This document shows positions 879-47,652 of a DNA stretch of 47,724 nucleotides, piece after piece (within the stretch, counting starts at the first letter, position 1; each line of letters opens with the position of its first letter). The notes under the pieces were generated by a model. That model did not search any database and had not been told where the DNA came from. It saw only the letters and a list, made by a program, of their open reading frames with translations. This DNA is from a virus: IMG/VR virus record IMGVR_UViG_3300031974_005641, positions 1 through 47,724 of that record; one strand, written 5' to 3'. A program made the position numbers and the translations under genes.

Positions 879-953
879 GGGCCGTTAGCTCAGTGGTAGA
901 GCAGTTGGCTTTTAACCAATTGGTCGATGGTTCGAATCCATCACGGCCCACCA
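879..953 (+). tRNA. tRNA-Lys(UUU), integration target
   Basis: The acceptor stem GGGCCGT/ACGGCCC, D-arm, anticodon loop CTTTTAA with anticodon TTT, T-arm with GGTTCGAATCC, and an encoded CCA are all present. It is the only intact copy in the window. The phage crossover occurred in its 3' half, so the gene is restored at attL while attR holds only the 3' remnant. Confidence 0.97.
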
Positions 954-961
954 TTTTCTCT
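906..961 (+). repeat. attL core (56 bp)
   Basis: Bases 906-961 are identical to 47597-47652. The repeat starts in the anticodon stem and runs past the CCA end into TTTTCTCT. Sequences diverge at once on both sides. Core within the tRNA 3' half next to a tyrosine integrase is the standard pattern. Confidence 0.96.
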
Positions 962-1022: not shown

Positions 1023-2051
1023 TCACTTTTTGTTGCTCATTCTAATTACCGATGTGCGGTATTTCCGCGTCATTGCTATTCGGCTGTGCTGTAATAATTC
1101 TTGAGCCTGGGCTTCGCTTAATTGGCTTGCTCTCACTTTCCGCAAATCGTGCTCGGTGAATCGTTTGGTGACGATGCCGCTCTCTACTGCTTTGACCATG
1201 TGGCGCTGCCAGATTGAGTCAAAACCTGAAGTTTTGCCTTCGTCATCGATGTACGGCTTGCCTTCTCGGGTGTGAAATAAGTGCATTCCCCGTATGTTGC
1301 CCGGTAAAGCCTGAATTGCGCCGACGATTTCGCGGGTTTCAGGTTCCCATTCCATCAAAAAGCTTTGGTAGGGTGGCTTGTTATTCTTGAACTTCATGCC
1401 GTCATCGACAATATCACGCCTTTCTAGCCTTAATAATTCGCCTTTACGGCGTCCGGTCCATACTTTTAGCGCAACATAGAGCTGCCATTTAGCGGGCAGG
1501 GTGGCAGCGAATGCTGAGATATCTTCAAGCGGCGGCACGTAGTCTTTGCTTTGCAGCGAAAACTTAACGACCTTTTTCCCGGTCATTGGGTGATCCGGGC
1601 GTAATCCCCACTCGATGGCCTTGGTAAACATGTGGCTCAATACTTCTAAGTCAAGATTAGCCTTTTTCTCAGATTCAGTTTTGCCGGTATGGTCGCGGTA
1701 CTGATAAATATGGTGTGGCTGAATCGCCTTAACTGCGTTGTCACAGAACACTTTGCGTATCCGTAGCAAGGAGTATTGATTAGAGCGCTGCGTTGCTGGC
1801 GCCTTCTTTGGCAGGGCTTCGAGCGCGTAGCGATCGCAGAGTTGCGCCATGGTGTTCACGTTGCCTTGGTAGCCTACGCGCTCAGCAAATGTCTGGTGCG
1901 CTTCGTGCAGCGTTTTTCCAAGCTTAAACTCACTCTTGCCCTCCCAAAATTGCTCAGCACCTTTCGGCACTCGATACAAATACATGCCATAGCGGAAGCG
2001 CCAACCCTTGGGCAGCGACTTGTTTTCCTTATTACGCTTTTTGGGACTCAT
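1023..2051 (-). CDS. int: phage tyrosine integrase
   Basis: Catalyses site-specific recombination between attP and the tRNA-Lys attB. Catalytic residues are visible in order: R201 in TGRRKGEL, H301 and R304 in HDLRK, H322 in LQHS and the nucleophile Y331 in KYR. The N-terminal part fits an arm-binding and core-binding domain. It reads toward attL and its start overlaps the upstream excisionase-like gene by 4 bases (ATGA), so it is translationally coupled to it. The 342-residue length is typical. It lacks nothing essential that I can see. Confidence 0.95.
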   Translation of the reverse strand: MSPKKRNKENKSLPKGWRFRYGMYLYRVPKGAEQFWEGKSEFKLGKTLHEAHQTFAERVGYQGNVNTMAQLCDRYALEALPKKAPATQRSNQYSLLRIRKVFCDNAVKAIQPHHIYQYRDHTGKTESEKKANLDLEVLSHMFTKAIEWGLRPDHPMTGKKVVKFSLQSKDYVPPLEDISAFAATLPAKWQLYVALKVWTGRRKGELLRLERRDIVDDGMKFKNNKPPYQSFLMEWEPETREIVGAIQALPGNIRGMHLFHTREGKPYIDDEGKTSGFDSIWQRHMVKAVESGIVTKRFTEHDLRKVRASQLSEAQAQELLQHSRIAMTRKYRTSVIRMSNKK

Positions 2052-4032: not shown

Positions 4033-4061
4033 TCGCTCGTCCTCAAAGCTCAGGGTTATCC
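3931..4061 (-). repeat. candidate attC-like site 2 (131 bp)
   Basis: Minus strand: R'' GGATAAC (4061-4055), with the stop of the PP-loop gene, and R' GTTAGAA (3937-3931). TTGAGGAC pairs with GTTCCTGCAA with two bulges, but the rest of the arm is weakly paired. It is placed mainly because its two cores match those of the neighbouring units. Confidence 0.4.
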
Positions 4062-4784
4062 GTCCATGCACTCGCATGCCACGTCCGGTGTAAACAGATC
4101 GCCCTGCGCGTCATCAAATTCTAAAAAATCTTTCCAAGCCCATGATCGCGCCAATCCTTTCGCGTGTGTCAACTCTGCGTTTTCCTCCATGTGGATCGCT
4201 CGCGCGATCAGGTCTGGGTGATCTTCCTTGAGCTGCTTAATCTCATGCGGCTTTGTAGCTGGGCAGAAAAAGCAGGCGCTCTTTCCGGGCTGCGGCAAAC
4301 CTGCACGCGCTATCGCCTCAATACATTCCTGCCGCCCCCAGTTCCATTCAACCAGCGGGTATCGCGTGCCCTCGTATTTCTTCCGGTGCGCTTCGCCAGC
4401 ATCAATGCCAACCCAAAACCAAGGGGCGATGTGGCCTTGCTTCTTTAGCCACCGTTTTTGCGGCCTTATCTTGTATCGCTCTGAACAGCTCTTAAAACCA
4501 TAGGCAAGACCCGGCAATGCATTGCGGTTTAAGCAATCCTGCTCCAGCGTTATATGCTCGCGCACGGTCACGATCCGAGGAAAGCCAATTGATTCACACC
4601 AGTCGCTTACCGTATCTCTATGCGCGTAGGTTTCCGGTCTTTCCCCCCCTGTATCGGCAAATACAATAATGTCTGGCCTCTCGCCTCGCTCATACAGGCC
4701 CACCAACATCGCCGTGCTATTAGTCCCAGCTCCGTAGCTGACCACGGATGGACGGATAACAACTGTGTCAACTGCGACATTCAT
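4056..4784 (-). CDS. PAPS reductase-family PP-loop protein
   Basis: A 242-residue adenine nucleotide alpha-hydrolase-fold protein. The PP-loop SYGAGTNSTAML is near residues 16-27, followed by VFADTGGERPETY, and there are cysteines at CSERYK and CFFCPA. Phage relatives are annotated as PAPS reductase family; their substrates are mostly unknown and include nucleic acid thiolation candidates. The ATG at 4784 has GGAG nine bases upstream, but both lie inside attC-like site 1; a GTG at VVSYG just after the core is the alternative. Not linked to other dnd-type genes here. Confidence 0.8.
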   Translation of the reverse strand: MNVAVDTVVIRPSVVSYGAGTNSTAMLVGLYERGERPDIIVFADTGGERPETYAHRDTVSDWCESIGFPRIVTVREHITLEQDCLNRNALPGLAYGFKSCSERYKIRPQKRWLKKQGHIAPWFWVGIDAGEAHRKKYEGTRYPLVEWNWGRQECIEAIARAGLPQPGKSACFFCPATKPHEIKQLKEDHPDLIARAIHMEENAELTHAKGLARSWAWKDFLEFDDAQGDLFTPDVACECMDG

Positions 4785-4825
4785 TCCGCTTCGCTCCATT
4801 CATGCGCGTTACACATGGGTTATGT
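4754..4825 (-). repeat. attC-like site 1
   Basis: Minus strand: R'' ACATAAC (4825-4819), R' GTTATCC (4760-4754), 72 bp. The arm TGTGTAACGCGCAT pairs over all 14 bases with ATGTCGCAGTTGACACA, leaving three single bulged bases on the 3' arm. This is the cleanest attC-like fold of the set. Confidence 0.83.
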
Positions 4826-13056: not shown

Positions 13057-13719
13057 TTACTGGCCATTTGAACTGAAGTTCGTAATAACCCGGTATTCGA
13101 TGACCTCATTTGTTGCGCCGATAACCTCTATTCTGGCGCCTTTGTAGCCAATTTTTTTAGAATGCGTAAGGTCGTAAGTGACTTCATTGCTAAATGCGGG
13201 TCTAGCAGCGTCACCGGAAAACTCCCTATATCCAATCTTTATTTCATTCCCGATTTTGCCGTTATAGATCAATGTTTGCTGAAACGCCTCTTTGCTCACG
13301 ATTTTAGTTGAACTTTGTTCGAAATCACTACTGACTTCGCACTTAAGCCCGCCAAGGCCGCTCGTTACGCATATTTTCTGGGAGTCGGTTGCCACCATTA
13401 CCGCCGTTATGTATGGGTTTTGGTTACGGGGGCCGTTTATGGAGTTGGCCTCATACGTTTGGTATTTCTCATCGCTGCCACGCAATAGGTAATAGCCAGG
13501 CTGCAAGGAATAACTGTTGGCAATTTGAATGATGTCTTTTACATTCAGAGCTTTCGATTCTACCTCTTTACCTTGAATAACCAGACTTTCACCAACTTGC
13601 GCGATCTGATTAGTTCCGATTGAAGGGATGCTTATTCGTTTTGTGATGGGTGAATAATTATAGGTTGGCGCTGCACAACCAGTAAGCGAGACGATTATCA
13701 TTAAAAAATAAATGCGCAT
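13057..13719 (-). CDS. lipoprotein of the lysogeny region
   Basis: A 220-residue protein with a signal peptide and lipobox SLTGC (Cys15), so it should be lipidated and placed in the envelope. The mature part is strand-rich; no family recognised. GGAGG lies four bases before ATG 13719. It is separated from the HPr-like gene by 80 bases without a gene. Lipoproteins in this position of prophages are often conversion or exclusion factors, which is inference here. Confidence 0.8.
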   Translation of the reverse strand: MRIYFLMIIVSLTGCAAPTYNYSPITKRISIPSIGTNQIAQVGESLVIQGKEVESKALNVKDIIQIANSYSLQPGYYLLRGSDEKYQTYEANSINGPRNQNPYITAVMVATDSQKICVTSGLGGLKCEVSSDFEQSSTKIVSKEAFQQTLIYNGKIGNEIKIGYREFSGDAARPAFSNEVTYDLTHSKKIGYKGARIEVIGATNEVIEYRVITNFSSNGQ

Positions 13720-13840: not shown

Positions 13841-13870
13841 TTGACATACTGTATTTTCATACAGTAGTCT
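13841..13870 (+). promoter_or_regulatory. LexA box inside a rightward promoter
   Basis: TACTGTATTTTCATACAGTA (13847-13866) is a near-consensus SOS box (CTGT-N8-ACAG with matching outer TA). It abuts a perfect -35 TTGACA (13841-13846); a weak -10 TAGTCT follows at 18 bases. LexA binding would block the promoter until DNA damage. Confidence 0.85.
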
Positions 13871-13930
13871 TTCGATCCCCCGCTGAAAAAAACGACCGGA
13901 ACGGGGAAACCGGCGGGGTGAGGCAGTGTT

Positions 13931-14137
13931 ATGGATAACGAAAAATTACAGTCAATAATCGTTAATATAACTGAGAATGATCGCGATCTTCTCGTTAATT
14001 TTTTCCAATATTTGCGGCTTTTACTTGCTGAACATAAGCGCGAGCTAATGCTATTAGACCTGGCGCATGCTCCGGCCCTGCCTCTTCGGCTAATCGACTT
14101 AATTCCTGAACTAATTGAGGCTGCGTGCTCTGAATAA
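13931..14137 (+). CDS. SOS-controlled small protein antisense to repressor
   Basis: A 68-residue, leucine-rich helical protein (MDNEKLQSIIVNITENDRDLLVNFFQYLRLLL...). GAGG seven bases before ATG 13931 supports translation. It lies 65 bases after the LexA box and its last 143 bases are antisense to the 3' end of the repressor gene. An antirepressor like the LexA-controlled Tum of phage 186, or transcription interference, would explain the layout; no sequence match to a known antirepressor is claimed. Confidence 0.6.
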   Translation: MDNEKLQSIIVNITENDRDLLVNFFQYLRLLLAEHKRELMLLDLAHAPALPLRLIDLIPELIEAACSE

Positions 14138-14420
14138 CGTTATCACCGAAGTTGGGGTCGATATCTTTTGGCTCGCATGGAATAAGCGCGCAGAATTTTA
14201 AAATTGCATTGGTGTTTATTGGTATCTCGCCATTGATATATTGAGATACAGTGCTCTGTCCTGCCCACCCGGCTAATTCAGCAGCTTTAGCTTGGGATAT
14301 TTTTTTCCCGTTTGGCTGGGCAGGTCGCTGTTGCCAAAGAGTATTTAAATTCTTGGCCCAAAGAAGTTCTTCTGGTGTTAAGTCACGTCGTTTTTTTGTC
14401 ATACCTAATTCTATAAGCAT
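13995..14420 (-). CDS. CI-like repressor without protease domain
   Basis: A 141-residue protein with a helix-turn-helix at about residues 39-90 (KISQAKAAELAGWAGQSTVSQYINGEIPINTNAILKFCALI). There is no S24 autoproteolysis domain with the Ser/Lys pair, so RecA-triggered self-cleavage is not expected. It is divergent from the Cro-like gene with operators between, and should bind CGCA-S-TGCG. The start may be ATG 14420 or 14402; neither has a good ribosome site, so a leaderless transcript is possible. Confidence 0.85.
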   Translation of the reverse strand: MLIELGMTKKRRDLTPEELLWAKNLNTLWQQRPAQPNGKKISQAKAAELAGWAGQSTVSQYINGEIPINTNAILKFCALIPCEPKDIDPNFGDNVIQSTQPQLVQELSRLAEEAGPEHAPGLIALARAYVQQVKAANIGKN

Positions 14421-14477
14421 TGCGCATTATTTGTGATTCGCAGTGCGCTTGACTTTGATAATGCGCTGTGCGAATAT
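14419..14477 (+). promoter_or_regulatory. PR promoter and operator region
   Basis: Plus strand -35 TTGACT (14449-14454) and -10 GAATAT (14472-14477) with a 17-base spacer. Operators: ATTCGCAGTGCG (14436-14447) just upstream of the -35, a variant CGCTGTGCGAAT (14464-14475) in the spacer, and a partial copy ATTGCGCATTAT (14419-14430) by the repressor start. The arrangement copies PL. Confidence 0.82.
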
Positions 14478-14501
14478 TTTTGGCATTATCGGAGGCCAAA
14501 C

Positions 14502-14723
14502 ATGTTGAACCAATCATTAGAGAAAGCCATTGATATTGCTGGCGGTGTAACCGCTCTAGCCAATGCCATTGGTGCCCGTCAAACCCTTGTTAGCCAGTGG
14601 CGCATGGGACACCGTCCAATCTCGCCCAAATGGTGTCTGCCGATTGAAGACGCCACCAGCGGCCAAGTAACCCGTTACGACTTACGTCCCGACATTTTCG
14701 GCGAGCCCACCCAAGCCGCCTAA
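14502..14723 (+). CDS. Cro-like (YdaS-type) regulator
   Basis: A 73-residue HTH protein (LEKAIDIAGGVTALANAIGARQTLVSQWRMGHRPISPKWCLPIEDATSGQVTRYDLRPDIF) of the YdaS/Cro-like type. GGAGG precedes ATG 14502. First gene of the rightward early operon, divergent from the repressor, so it should favour lytic growth by binding the same operators. Confidence 0.9.
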   Translation: MLNQSLEKAIDIAGGVTALANAIGARQTLVSQWRMGHRPISPKWCLPIEDATSGQVTRYDLRPDIFGEPTQAA

Positions 14724-14813: not shown

Positions 14814-15170
14814 ATGAGCAAGCAATTAAGTATAGATTTCAATCCCGATATTTATAGCCAATTCAGTACCTTGCGCTCGTTTTTGGATGACCACTTGATC
14901 CCTGAAATGTGTCGCGACAATAAGGGCGTTCAGCGTCAGCTTATTGCCGCAAATCTTGACCTATCGCCAAGCCATTTAAAGAACAAGCTGGTCGCCAGTG
15001 ACGGCGCCAAATTCAATACCGATGACCTTGAGCGATTTCTTTCAGTCTACAAAACCCACGAACCTATTAAGTATTTGATCTCGCGATTTATGTATCAAAG
15101 CGTGGATGACGAGGAGGAAGCGCTTGAAGCCCGGTTGGCGGAGATCCGTGCACGAAAGAGGGTTGCGTGA
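14814..15170 (+). CDS. CII-like (CP76-type) regulatory protein
   Basis: A 118-residue protein in the CII position. It has a helical DNA-binding-like segment RQLIAANLDLSPSHLKNKLVASDGAKFNTDDLERFLSVYKTHEPIKYLISRF, which fits phage CII/CP76-type proteins, then an acidic to basic C-terminal helix. It probably activates repressor or integrase establishment. Overlaps the next gene (TGATG). Confidence 0.72.
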   Translation: MSKQLSIDFNPDIYSQFSTLRSFLDDHLIPEMCRDNKGVQRQLIAANLDLSPSHLKNKLVASDGAKFNTDDLERFLSVYKTHEPIKYLISRFMYQSVDDEEEALEARLAEIRARKRVA

Positions 15171-15565
15171 TGCGAAAACCTGATCGAGTTATCAACGGCG
15201 GTTATCTGCAGCGCTGGTACATCATTCCGCGCAATCGATTTATGAATATTTACTTACATCGTTTTGGCGCATCTGACGACGATAGGGCGCTTCACGATCA
15301 CCCTTGGTACAGCGTGAGCTTTCTACTTCGGGGTGAGCTTTTAGAGCATAGCTTTAAGGGTGGCCGCCATATTCCTTGGCTTATACCGGTGTTCCGCACG
15401 GCTAAGTTTGCTCACCGCTTGGAGGTAGTTAAGGGGCCGGTTTGGACCGTATTTATCACTGGGCCAGCTATTCGGCAGTGGGGTTTTTATTGCCACAGCG
15501 GGTGGCGGCATTGGACTAAATTCACTTCCAAGGATGGCAACTCAATTGGGCCGGGGTGCGAATAA
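15170..15565 (+). CDS. small cupin-like phage protein
   Basis: A 131-residue protein with YLHRFGASDDDRALHDHPWYSVSFLLRGELLEHS, i.e. an HDHPW...G pattern like a cupin metal site, then a second half with FAHRLEVVKGPVWTVFITGP. Similar short proteins occur in phage early regions; substrate unknown. ATG 15170 overlaps the CII stop, so translation is coupled. Confidence 0.75.
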   Translation: MRKPDRVINGGYLQRWYIIPRNRFMNIYLHRFGASDDDRALHDHPWYSVSFLLRGELLEHSFKGGRHIPWLIPVFRTAKFAHRLEVVKGPVWTVFITGPAIRQWGFYCHSGWRHWTKFTSKDGNSIGPGCE

Positions 15566-19993: not shown

Positions 19994-20199
19994 TGGCCCC
20001 GGATAAAGTTTCTACAGCAGCAAGCTATACCGCATCAGTAGTCACCACGGTCGCAGGGTTGACGATAAATGAGTGGGTGGCTATTGGTGGCCTGATGATT
20101 GGTCTATGTACGTTTTTGACAAATGTGTGGTATCGGCGCCAGCAGCTAAAAATCCAGCGCGAGGCCGCAAAAAATGGCCAAAGGCTGGATTTGGGTTAG
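19993..20199 (+). CDS. holin-like protein
   Basis: A 68-residue protein with one strong transmembrane helix (WVAIGGLMIGLCTFLTNVWYRRQQL) and a basic C-terminal tail, like the small holins of P2/HP1-like phages (LTINEWVAIGGL). It should permeabilise the inner membrane for the endolysin. It converges with the Aca2-like gene with a 4-base overlap. Confidence 0.8.
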   Translation: MAPDKVSTAASYTASVVTTVAGLTINEWVAIGGLMIGLCTFLTNVWYRRQQLKIQREAAKNGQRLDLG

Positions 20200-20582
20200 C
20201 TAAGCTCAACATTGCCGCCTTCGCTGAAAACAAACGCGACAGCGGCCTGATGAATGCGCCAGCATACTTGGTTTTTACCGGGGTAATCAGCGGCGTATTG
20301 CTCAAACGTGTGATAGTAATTTAGCGTTAATGTCGCGTTTTCGTCTTCTTGCTCCATGTTGTATTGCTTCTCTGTTAGCTCGCCGACAAGCTCATTGCGC
20401 ATACCGATCAACAAATAAATTTCTGAATCAACGTCTGGCGGCACTTTGGAGCGTCCAGATTCCCAGTATTGCCAAGTACGTGGTGAGACCTTGCCGATTA
20501 ATTCGGCAGCCTCGCTTACATCGAGCATAAGCAACTTGCGGCAGGCTTGTAGCTCAGAATTATTTAGTGTGTTCCAGCTCAT
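20196..20582 (-). CDS. Aca2-like HTH regulator (anti-CRISPR-associated)
   Basis: A 128-residue protein with NNSELQACRKLLMLDVSEAAELIGKVSPRTWQYWESGRSKVPPDVDSEIYLLI, which agrees closely with my memory of Aca2, the DUF1870-type autorepressor of acr operons. The C-terminal NQVCWRIHQAAVAFVFSEG also fits. AAGGA before ATG 20582 sets the start, and the ATG overlaps the stop of the gene before. It is the last gene of a three-gene minus-strand unit placed inside the plus-strand late region. Confidence 0.85.
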   Translation of the reverse strand: MSWNTLNNSELQACRKLLMLDVSEAAELIGKVSPRTWQYWESGRSKVPPDVDSEIYLLIGMRNELVGELTEKQYNMEQEDENATLTLNYYHTFEQYAADYPGKNQVCWRIHQAAVAFVFSEGGNVELS

Positions 20583-21127
20583 AATGAATCCTTTTTTTGC
20601 AATATTGATTTTGCTCCAATCAGGATGCATCTAAACATCCATGGATTATTTAACGCGAGCGCCTTTAATTTGTCTTCTTTAGTGTTTGTTAGTGTTACAA
20701 GATCTTCAATTTTTAAGCCTGCCTTCTTCAGCGACAGGAGACCTCCAATAAATTCCTCTTTGTCTTGAATGTTTAGCAAGTCAAGCACTATTTCTACCGC
20801 TTTAATTTTCCCGTTAGCTTTAATGCTGATGTCATTAAACCGATGCATGTCATGATCTATCTGTGAAACTCCGAGGGCATCGTAAGCAAAGAATAGACGT
20901 TTTTCTGTTTGATTTATTGACATCCTTGCATGCTGCAGCCTCGCCAGCAGGTCTTTGATTTTAATATCATAATCTTTATTGGTATTGTTTTGTTTTAGTG
21001 AAATCAAACTCTCTTCTATTTCTTTGATTTCACTTTTGCATAGCAAAAAGCTGTCGTCGCAACCTCGCTGATTCGCGCAGACTGATGACGCCTTGTTAAT
21101 ACCTTTTTCAAAAATAGAAAAATCCAT
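20579..21127 (-). CDS. unknown protein, candidate anti-CRISPR or counter-defence
   Basis: A 182-residue, highly helical, lysine-rich protein (coiled-coil like at 28-80, then VEIVLDLLNIQDKEEFIGGLLSLKKAGLKIEDLVTLTNTKEDKL). No family recognised. AT-rich DNA unlike the flanking structural genes suggests separate acquisition. It overlaps aca2 by 4 bases, so it is co-translated with it. Guilt by association is the only evidence for an anti-CRISPR role. Confidence 0.7.
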   Translation of the reverse strand: MDFSIFEKGINKASSVCANQRGCDDSFLLCKSEIKEIEESLISLKQNNTNKDYDIKIKDLLARLQHARMSINQTEKRLFFAYDALGVSQIDHDMHRFNDISIKANGKIKAVEIVLDLLNIQDKEEFIGGLLSLKKAGLKIEDLVTLTNTKEDKLKALALNNPWMFRCILIGAKSILQKKDSL

Positions 21128-21175
21128 GACGTACCTATAAAACCAAGTGAAGGCGCCCAGAAGGGCGCTGTGTGA

Positions 21176-21577
21176 TTAGTTAGAAGTATGATCGAAGACA
21201 TAAGCGCGGTTTTCTGGTGAATATTTAAAAACCTTGTTTCCTTCTTTTCTGTATGTCTCGACGTGATTCAAATAGAGCGCTTTACATTTATCAATAATGA
21301 CTACATCAAGTGGAGTAGTTCTTAGTTCTTCGATAGACATTTGAAGATTGTATTCCCAGCCAGAAAAGTGGGGGTAGTTTTCCTCGTTTTCTTCAATAAA
21401 ATTGTGCGCCCAAGAGTACAGAAAAGAGATAACTTCTTCGGCGAAGTCGTAGTTAAAACAAGGAGTAGCGCCGTACTGGTTGTCGAGGAATTTGTGAACG
21501 CGAAAATCAAGCTTAATGCCTGTTTCGGATTCAAGGTCGCTGCGGAATTGTTTAACAAGAGCTTTAGTATTTTTCAT
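21176..21577 (-). CDS. unknown acidic protein, candidate anti-CRISPR
   Basis: A 133-residue acidic protein, first gene behind an operator-bearing promoter and upstream of an Aca2-like gene. It contains DFAEEVISFLYSWAHNFIEENEENYPHFSGWEYN and ends with KVFKYSPENRAYVFDH, a strand motif also seen at the ends of some small anti-defence proteins. AGGTG before ATG 21577 favours it over the GTG at 21586. No known Acr family is recognised. Confidence 0.72.
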   Translation of the reverse strand: MKNTKALVKQFRSDLESETGIKLDFRVHKFLDNQYGATPCFNYDFAEEVISFLYSWAHNFIEENEENYPHFSGWEYNLQMSIEELRTTPLDVVIIDKCKALYLNHVETYRKEGNKVFKYSPENRAYVFDHTSN

Positions 21578-21628
21578 TTTAATCACCTAATTGTGAGTGC
21601 TTCGAGCCAATCTCGTAAGCATGGGTCC

Positions 21629-21792: not shown

Positions 21793-22356
21793 ATGAAAAT
21801 AGACAATTTCCCGCCCTATAAAAAGGCGAATGTTGACGATCTCATACCGTATGCGAACAACAGTCGGACGCATAATGAGGACCAGGTGGCTCAGATCGCC
21901 GCAAGCATCAAGGAATACGGTTTTACAAACCCCGTTCTGGTTGACGGTTCGAAAGGTGTTATAGCGGGGCATGGTAGGTTGTTGGCCGCAAAAAAGCTCG
22001 GGCTAAAACAGGTTCCGGTCATCGAACTTGGGCATCTAAGTGAGACGCAAAAGAAAGCATATATTATCGCTGATAACAAACTGGCATTAAATGCTGACTG
22101 GAACTATGACGCACTGAAGATTGAGATAGAGGGCTTGGCTGAGGTTGATTTTGATTTAGGTCTTACTGGGTTCTCTGGTGATGAGCTGGGTGATTTATTT
22201 CCCGAAGGAAAAGCTGACGGAGGTGCTGATATCGGGGTTGCCATGGAGGATGGAACGGAATTTTTAGTGGTTGTTGATTGCGTTAGCGAGATGGAGCAGT
22301 CAAAACTATATGATGATTTATGCGCTAAAGGCTACTCTGTGAAGCTGGTGAGCTAA
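21793..22356 (+). CDS. ParB/Srx-domain protein
   Basis: A 187-residue protein. Residues 12-95 are a ParB N-terminal-like domain (LIPYANNSRTHNEDQVAQIAASIKEYGFTNPVLVD, then GVIAGHGRLLAAKKLGLKQVPVI). The C-terminal part (FLVVVDCVSEMEQSKLYDDLCAKGYSVKLVS) is a small domain often found in phage ParB proteins. Such proteins can be NTPases or nucleases. It overlaps the ABC/GNAT gene (TAATG), so both are probably one system. Confidence 0.85.
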   Translation: MKIDNFPPYKKANVDDLIPYANNSRTHNEDQVAQIAASIKEYGFTNPVLVDGSKGVIAGHGRLLAAKKLGLKQVPVIELGHLSETQKKAYIIADNKLALNADWNYDALKIEIEGLAEVDFDLGLTGFSGDELGDLFPEGKADGGADIGVAMEDGTEFLVVVDCVSEMEQSKLYDDLCAKGYSVKLVS

Positions 22357-23456
22357 TGAAAGACTATGAAGTTCTACTTAAAAGCCCGGTTTCGACTTCT
22401 TTCCGGTGTCAAAAAGCAGCAGATAGTTTAGATATAAACACCTCTGAGAAATCAGTTCACCATCTCAAAGTCAGTGCGGATATAAACGCAGACTACAGTA
22501 TCGGATTAATTATTGGTGCGTCTGGATCAGGAAAAACCACACTTGCTAAGCAGATTTTTGGAGAAAAGGTCTTCGAATCTGATTTAGATCAGTCGCTACC
22601 AATTATTGAGCAATTCCCTAGCAATCTTGAGTACGATGATTGCGCGAAGTTATTGTCTGGTGTTGGCCTTACAAGCGTTCCGTGTTGGATCAGGCCGGTC
22701 TATACACTCTCCAACGGTCAAAAAGCGCGGGCAGAGATTGCTTTGAATCTGGCAAAAAATGCTGAGTTGTCTGTGGTTGATGAATGGACTTCGGTTGTAG
22801 ACCGCACTGTCGCCAAAGTGATGAGTTATTGTGTGTCAAAACATATTCGCGCTAGCGGCAAGAAAATTGTTCTGCTGTCCTGCCATTATGACGTATTGGA
22901 GTGGCTTGACCCTGATTGGGTTATTGATTGCAATAAGCAATCTTATACAGATCGGAGGTCACTTAGGCGAGGCCAAAGGAAAGAGAAAATCACTTTCACA
23001 GTCCGTCGCGTCGGGCGCGATACATGGCAAAGATTTAGCAAGTATCATTATCTAAGCAAAAACCTTCCAGGCGGCCATATTGAATGTTTTGGCCTGTTTT
23101 ATGGCGACGAGCAGGTAGGGTTTACGTGCTTCGCTAATTACGTTCCTTGGCGTGACAAAAACAAATCTAAGCCGATGCATTCAAACCGCGTGGTGATTCA
23201 TCCAGACTACGCAGGATTCGGCTTGGGGATTCGATTTGTAAATGAGTGCAGTGCCATCATGGAGAATGAAGGTTTTGCGGTATACGCGAAACTAAGCGCG
23301 ACACCGCTAGTTAAAGCACGATTAAAGCAGCCTGAGAGATGGAGGCTGATAAAGGTAGGACGCGACATGAAGGTTAGAAAAACCGGAAACATGTCGCGGA
23401 GTTCGGGGTTCAGATCAAAAGTTAAGACGTACACTTTCCGCTATATAGCTGCTTAG
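22356..23456 (+). CDS. ABC-ATPase / GNAT acetyltransferase fusion
   Basis: A 366-residue fusion. Residues 45-195 form an ABC ATPase with Walker A GASGSGKT (54-61), signature LSNGQKARAE (118-127), Walker B SVVDEW (139-144) and H-loop His177; no membrane part is present. Residues 212-350 form a GNAT domain (GLFYGDEQVGFTCFANYV, HPDYAGFGLGIRFV). GNAT-fold proteins such as Mom of phage Mu modify DNA bases, and the ParB neighbour suggests a DNA substrate; this is inference. AT-rich relative to flanking genes. Confidence 0.85.
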   Translation: MKDYEVLLKSPVSTSFRCQKAADSLDINTSEKSVHHLKVSADINADYSIGLIIGASGSGKTTLAKQIFGEKVFESDLDQSLPIIEQFPSNLEYDDCAKLLSGVGLTSVPCWIRPVYTLSNGQKARAEIALNLAKNAELSVVDEWTSVVDRTVAKVMSYCVSKHIRASGKKIVLLSCHYDVLEWLDPDWVIDCNKQSYTDRRSLRRGQRKEKITFTVRRVGRDTWQRFSKYHYLSKNLPGGHIECFGLFYGDEQVGFTCFANYVPWRDKNKSKPMHSNRVVIHPDYAGFGLGIRFVNECSAIMENEGFAVYAKLSATPLVKARLKQPERWRLIKVGRDMKVRKTGNMSRSSGFRSKVKTYTFRYIAA

Positions 23457-43452: not shown

Positions 43453-43781
43453 TGCAGCGGCTACACGGCGATCAAATAAGCCGCGCCATAAACACGGTGG
43501 CAAGCACTAGCTACACCTTTGTGCTCGCAGATGCCCGTGCCTATGTGCGCTGTACATCTGGCAGCGCAGTAACACTCACCATACCTGCCGAGGCCGACGC
43601 TAATTTTGACATTGGTGCGCGCATACCCATTCGCCAAGCGGGTGCTGGTGTACCCACAATTGAGGGCGACATGGGCGTAACGTTGCTGTCTGCTAATAAC
43701 ACATTGGGTGGCCAGCATGCCAATGCGCTGTTGGTCAAAACAGGCTCCGACGAGTGGATATTGCTCGGGGGTGTTGCATGA
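43452..43781 (+). CDS. small virion strand-rich protein (fibre anchor paralogue 1)
   Basis: A 109-residue protein with SYTFVLADARAYVRCTSGSAVTLTIPAEADANFDIGARIPIRQAGAGVPTIEGDMGVTLL, a beta domain repeated at the start of the next two genes. Ends with DEWILLGGVA like its paralogues (DEWDLVLF, NEWSCVIS). Overlaps the next gene by 4 bases. Confidence 0.75.
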   Translation: MQRLHGDQISRAINTVASTSYTFVLADARAYVRCTSGSAVTLTIPAEADANFDIGARIPIRQAGAGVPTIEGDMGVTLLSANNTLGGQHANALLVKTGSDEWILLGGVA

Positions 43782-47596: not shown

Positions 47597-47652
47597 TGGC
47601 TTTTAACCAATTGGTCGATGGTTCGAATCCATCACGGCCCACCATTTTCTCT
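47597..47652 (+). repeat. attR core (56 bp), tRNA-Lys remnant
   Basis: Identical to attL 906-961. It keeps the anticodon loop, T-arm and acceptor 3' strand, but the upstream sequence is phage DNA, so no tRNA is made from it. Confidence 0.96.

Follow-up and report, generated by a model that had tools for sequence, protein, structure and literature searches.

How a prophage whose repressor carries no self-cleaving domain can respond to DNA damage is the question raised by the immunity region in IMG/VR virus record IMGVR_UViG_3300031974_005641, positions 1 to 47,724 (the window, that is, the whole stretch of 47,724 nucleotides analysed here), a contig which holds a whole prophage of a marine bacterium (Zhongshania) plus host DNA at the ends. 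Many prophages possess short repressors that RecA cannot cleave, and their damage sensing is usually left unexplained. With moderate confidence we read this locus as a switch of the Gifsy/186 type with an antirepressor under LexA control, whose gene, a small open reading frame (ORF) designated ORF68, is situated within the immunity region antisense to its target, and such a DNA-damage switch acting through ORF68 is probably how damage induces this phage. The first half of this reading, LexA control, is drawn from sequence, while the second half, removal of the repressor, is drawn from precedent.

The repressor and the adjoining part of the immunity region are arranged as follows.

13995 to 14402, minus strand: short CI/DicA-like repressor, 135 amino acids (HTH_3, E 1e-4; PHROG transcriptional regulators)
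14403 to 14501, no strand: divergent control region separating the repressor from cro; its GCGC-type inverted repeats are, from the sequence alone, probable operators
14502 to 14723, plus strand: Cro-like regulator of the YdaS family (PF15943, E 2e-22)

An alternative upstream ATG at 14420 would lengthen the repressor to 141 amino acids. The preliminary description of this DNA had held that the protein is devoid of a protease domain, and this agrees with the family searches, in which helix-turn-helix families only were matched and no match to the S24 peptidase was obtained. Repressors sharing the DNA-binding part of the window protein are either long (224–325 amino acids), with an S24-type C-terminal part in the cases read, or short (133–166 amino acids), and the window repressor falls in the short class. 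A strong LexA box adjoining the repressor was present in none of the 80 repressor relatives kept from IMG/VR.

The candidate for damage control is located beyond the 3' end of the repressor gene.

13841 to 13846, plus strand: -35 element TTGACA, exact consensus, abutting the LexA box
13847 to 13866, no strand: LexA (SOS) box TACTGTATTTTCATACAGTA, perfect 8+8 palindrome with both 8-base arms exact
13865 to 13870, plus strand: putative -10 element TAGTCT, 3/6, spacer 18, placed from the sequence and from alignment with two related loci, L045 and L132

Within the window TACTGTATTTTCATACAGTA is the sole match at up to three mismatches (shuffles give a mean of 0.12), the second-best LexA site scores 12/16, and the number of perfect boxes expected by chance is 2e-6 under a dinucleotide model. 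A near-consensus box at a promoter with a perfect -35 had been proposed earlier; the site turned out to be stronger than that, its palindrome being perfect and the box being the unique good one in the prophage. As a CTGT-N8-ACAG palindrome overlapping a promoter it would place this promoter in the LexA-controlled type. A simple promoter scan missed the promoter because its -10 is weak. Two other candidates were set aside: a second CTGT-N8-ACAG at 43728, which is within a coding region and has no flanking consensus (loose matches of this kind occur as often as chance predicts), and the one unrelated contig returned by an exact scan for TTGACA plus box, with no repressor among the ORFs listed.

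Because the prophage is complete, with no part missing, LexA-box counts in the window are counts for the whole element. Its limits are given by an exact direct repeat, beside which the integrase gene is found.

906 to 961, plus strand: attL, 56 base pairs, in tRNA-Lys beside queC, one copy of an exact 56-base-pair direct repeat
47597 to 47652, plus strand: attR, 56 base pairs, exact direct-repeat partner of attL
1023 to 2051, minus strand: integrase (PF00589, E 9e-8)

The left flank, att core, and right flank are contiguous in Zhongshania antarctica (Spongiibacteraceae) and in a second Zhongshania genome, which thus show the empty site. The left end of the window carries queC and tRNA-Lys, and the encoded QueC is 96% identical to that of Z. 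antarctica. In this host family a LexA box with at most one mismatch was detected in 16 of 21 genomes (0 for the reversed-pattern control), and near-identical boxes precede imuA-, recN-, umuD-, and yebG-like genes, the labels of these ORFs being given by inspection with no family search run on them. Since such boxes stand before SOS-type genes across the family, TACTGTATTTTCATACAGTA is by its sequence the SOS box of Spongiibacteraceae.

Downstream of the box the following features are recognized.

13920 to 13923, plus strand: Shine-Dalgarno-like GAGG of ORF68, 7 nucleotides before the ATG
13931 to 14137, plus strand: ORF68, candidate antirepressor, 68 codons (open frame, Shine-Dalgarno sequence, codon score)
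13995 to 14137, both strands: stretch in which ORF68 runs antisense to the repressor codons for the C-terminal tail, 143 nucleotides, about repressor codons 89–135

The coordinates bear out the layout first described, a 68-residue ORF read from the LexA promoter into the 3' end of the repressor gene, and the ORF starts 54 nucleotides downstream of the likely transcription start. Its codon score is 0.19 bits per codon, compared with 0.03 +/- 0.13 for antisense frames, and lies within the range of the prophage genes, being highest outside the repressor overlap (0.32). A repressor with no recognizable self-cleavage domain, together with a small gene under a LexA box, a -35 element, and a Shine-Dalgarno sequence, qualifies the locus as a candidate switch. 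That ORF68 is not a gene at all, and that the box has no relevant target or SOS does not induce the phage, is highly improbable: an ATG ORF of at least 68 amino acids arises from the leader by chance in 4.8% of cases (0.6% with a Shine-Dalgarno sequence; simulated leader and shuffled repressor) and the -10 is weak, but this explanation has to contend with a box and a -35 that are both perfect and with the matching ORF present in each of two diverged loci.

L045 is an IMG/VR phage whose repressor is 60% identical to that of the window over residues 3–86 (84 residues) and is followed, on the opposite strand, by a 60-amino acid ORF beginning with MDNKK- (MDNEK- in the window), placed in the same antisense frame with respect to the repressor. 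The L045 neighbours also have matches in the window: a lipoprotein of PHROG_1353, Cro, and the gene that follows CII. Two genes of this region of the window are listed here.

13057 to 13719, minus strand: lipoprotein-like gene, PHROG_1353 (E 1e-62), on the other side of the LexA box
14814 to 15170, plus strand: CII-like regulator (PHROG_101, weak at E 0.004; 47% identical counterpart in L012)

L132, from Spongiibacteraceae genome G021, was detected via the repressor tail alone: its DNA-binding part is unrelated, while its tail is as in L045 and its antisense ORF is 48% identical to that of L045. Both loci keep a short repressor, a convergent 60-amino acid ORF starting with MD-, the same antisense frame, and a similar leader, and promoter and leader align across all three, with TATTTT in L045 and L132 at the position of the putative -10 TAGTCT. 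The small proteins of the window and L045 share 23% identity with a z score of 4.8 over shuffles (3.0 when the first five residues are removed), and the comparison of the window protein with that of L132 alone was not significant. Because L132 combines an unrelated DNA-binding domain with a retained tail and antisense ORF, tail and ORF appear to travel as one cassette, which would fit a small protein whose target is the tail. L045 and L132 represent a single tail-sharing event, so that these are three loci and not three independent proofs; L139, considered as a fourth case, was rejected as the same DNA as L132. In the L045/L132 overlap, changes at repressor codon positions 1, 2, and 3 number 9, 4, and 11 of 41, with 5 of 15 fourfold sites changed, while in the non-overlapping start of the ORF 9, 10, and 12 of 19 are changed at the three positions.

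Several observations weigh against the antirepressor switch. A complete LexA box is found in the window only of the three loci, since L045 keeps the half-site ATACAGTA with the other half decayed, and in L132 a transposase gene ends about 30 nucleotides before the half-site, where the sequence resembles by inspection the end of an insertion sequence, which appears to end inside the promoter. The L045 phage carries a better box, AGCTGTATAAATATACAGTA, elsewhere, near the att end and before a different small ORF. With the box incomplete in the relatives and the L045 box elsewhere, the window may have gained SOS control of the small gene recently, L045 may have lost it, or the control may have shifted. 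To these are added the weak -10 of the ORF68 promoter and the fact that physical overlap alone would suffice to keep tail and ORF linked. A third-position excess is absent in the 19 non-overlapping small-gene codons of L045 and L132, and the substitution pattern is no proof that the small protein is under selection. Also, fold searches with the structure models gave no significant match in PDB or BFVD, and no sequence similarity was found between ORF68 and Tum and Rem, the antirepressors compared.

As to the box of the L045 phage itself, it falls within the stretch L143:4372-4800, has two mismatches, and precedes a minus-strand ORF of PHROG_15882, a family without assigned function, which is possibly an SOS gene of that phage.

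The protein encoded by ORF68 is modelled as all helical, and the predicted local distance difference test (pLDDT) value of the model rose from 64 to 73 after the L045 and L132 relatives were added. Single-sequence searches with ORF68 gave no homologue in phages or IMG/VR, and in 293 genomes of the order nothing was found beyond matches at E 0.006 lacking the context. The small proteins of L045 and L132 used as queries gave no further homologues in phages or plasmids, and the three-sequence profile matched L132 alone among 390 genomes of the order. The one partial match of this profile in 369 genomes of the class (E 0.0099, inside a 422-codon frame) was taken as chance, as was a weak PHROG match to SieB at E 0.2.

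Family and profile searches returned no homologue of ORF68 with known function, and ORF68 might be an SOS-induced small protein with another task, such as host SOS modulation, cell division, or toxin action, in a prophage induced otherwise. LexA-controlled phage small proteins do include DinI homologues not needed for induction (PMC3121763), and the further LexA box of the L045 phage points in the same direction; nevertheless, this explanation is distinctly unlikely, because SOS induction of a prophage with neither another LexA box nor a cleavable repressor would have no route, and because its place in the immunity region, like its movement together with the repressor tail, points to a connection with the repressor.

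The leader that precedes ORF68 has a structure of its own.

13878 to 13918, plus strand: 5'-leader hairpin, arms 13878–13885 and 13911–13918, an 8-base-pair stem between promoter and Shine-Dalgarno sequence

Two-sided changes keep the pairing in 5 of the 8 stem pairs across the three sequences, a result reached in 0 of 500 shuffles; fold prediction returns the hairpin for the window and L132 and not for L045, and it is no more stable than shuffles. With three sequences compared it may be regarded as a lead. The right arm has a second possible pairing partner, an inner arm that on the minus strand is followed by a T-run in the window and L132 and not clearly in L045, so the hairpin may also serve to terminate the repressor mRNA.

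The paired changes in this hairpin also bear on the explanation that the RNA, or transcription itself, is the active agent: the LexA promoter would fire into the repressor gene, block or degrade its mRNA, and perhaps read into cro and the early genes, thereby by-passing the repressor and leaving ORF68 secondary. With its convergent promoter and the 143-nucleotide coding overlap the predicted transcript would be cis-antisense to the repressor mRNA, it runs in the same direction as cro, and a simple scan found no terminator-like site on the plus strand between the promoter and cro. In addition, the antisense OOP RNA of lambda stimulates cII mRNA degradation; on the other hand, the loss of CII under SOS induction was hardly affected by OOP (PMC2327240). 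This explanation is judged unlikely, given that the ATG frame is open behind a purine-rich leader in all three loci despite widely diverged 5' parts of the ORF, that the untranslated region after ORF68 would invite Rho termination, and that the hairpin is not the predicted fold in L045. No Rfam match was obtained.

The antirepressor switch would then operate as follows. In the lysogen LexA on the box would keep ORF68 off, and the short repressor, with no self-cleaving domain, would hold the lytic promoters off. DNA damage would remove LexA and allow ORF68 to be translated, and the protein, whose antirepressor activity we infer, would bind the repressor, most likely at the C-terminal tail, so that the repressor would leave the operators and cro and the lytic genes would start; interference with repressor transcription or read-through into cro could add to this or even be the main effect. 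A compact cassette is put forward more tentatively, as a possible but doubtful extension: the antirepressor and the repressor tail it recognizes would be encoded on opposite strands, a single SOS transcript would both yield the antirepressor and disturb the repressor gene, perhaps extending into cro, and the overlap would keep the pair matched through domain exchange. As inhibitor and target overlap, they would move together when the DNA-binding domain is exchanged, and their match would be unbreakable by recombination. If the switch is true, SOS input and repressor share one overlapping locus instead of the two separated modules of Gifsy, further cases could be sought by the rule of a convergent LexA box at the 3' end of a short repressor gene, and the locus provides an example of two genes that overlap in antisense and encode proteins expected to bind one another.

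Some other genes of the prophage deserve mention. The early-operon gene at 15167-15565 belongs to PHROG_4786 (annotated as cysteine dioxygenase) and has a 34% counterpart in L045. The PAPS-reductase-like gene at 4056-4799 also matches SspD of PADLOC (E 1.5e-13), and at 22356-23456, after a ParB-like gene, an ABC-type ATPase part is fused to an acetyltransferase-like part, with a weak PADLOC match to mad3. A helix-turn-helix gene of the Aca2/YdiL-like type (20196-20630, minus strand; PF08965, E 1e-26) lies directly 3' of two minus-strand genes without assigned function, 20579-21127 and 21176-21586; the layout of 20196-21586 is of the anti-CRISPR operon type, and the latter two are anti-CRISPR candidates.

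Among known systems the direct precedents are the Gifsy phages and coliphage 186. The Gifsy repressors do not undergo cleavage, and small antirepressors under LexA control remove them (PMC3121763); the pairs GfoR/GftR/GfhR and GfoA/GftA/GfhA of Gifsy-1, Gifsy-2, and Gifsy-3 resemble the window in combining a short non-cleavable repressor (136 amino acids for Gifsy-1 and Gifsy-2 in LT2, 135 in the window) with a small gene under a LexA box. However, the Gifsy antirepressor gene is outside the immunity region, while ORF68 lies within that region, converges on the repressor gene and shares part of its DNA, and has no dinI neighbour. In 186 the LexA-controlled gene tum (promoter p95, LexA site) likewise inactivates the CI repressor, as is proposed here; Tum, however, has 146 amino acids and a DinI-like half and is encoded about 6 kb from cI. 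The comparison with Tum made in the preliminary description applies to the proposed mechanism and not to the sequence, as no alignment was obtained at E 100 and the profile comparison gave a probability of 0.1%.

The DicA/Rem pair of Qin (PMC10448788) also joins a 135-amino acid repressor without cleavage site to a small antirepressor, but the inducing condition of Rem is not known and rem is about 3 kb from dicA, whereas the window has a LexA box and an ORF68 that overlaps the repressor gene; ORF68 and Rem gave no alignment at E 100, and DicA aligns with the window repressor at E 0.012 only. The nearest annotated-phage repressor is of the Rac type (DicA/RacR with YdaS, phage Rac-SA53; 44% over 91 residues), and a YdaS-like Cro is present in both, yet the Rac-type loci examined have no LexA box. 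The OOP transcript of lambda (PMC2327240) is, as in the window, complementary to the 3' portion of a gene for lysogeny, but it is a short RNA directed against cII and not against the repressor gene, while the window transcript carries an ORF. Partial coverage of the literature yielded no published account of such a layout. The class of mechanism is known, and the difference is architectural: in Gifsy and 186 the antirepressor belongs to a separate module, while in the window its candidate gene shares DNA with the repressor gene on the opposite strand, and it has stayed with the repressor tail through exchange of the DNA-binding part.
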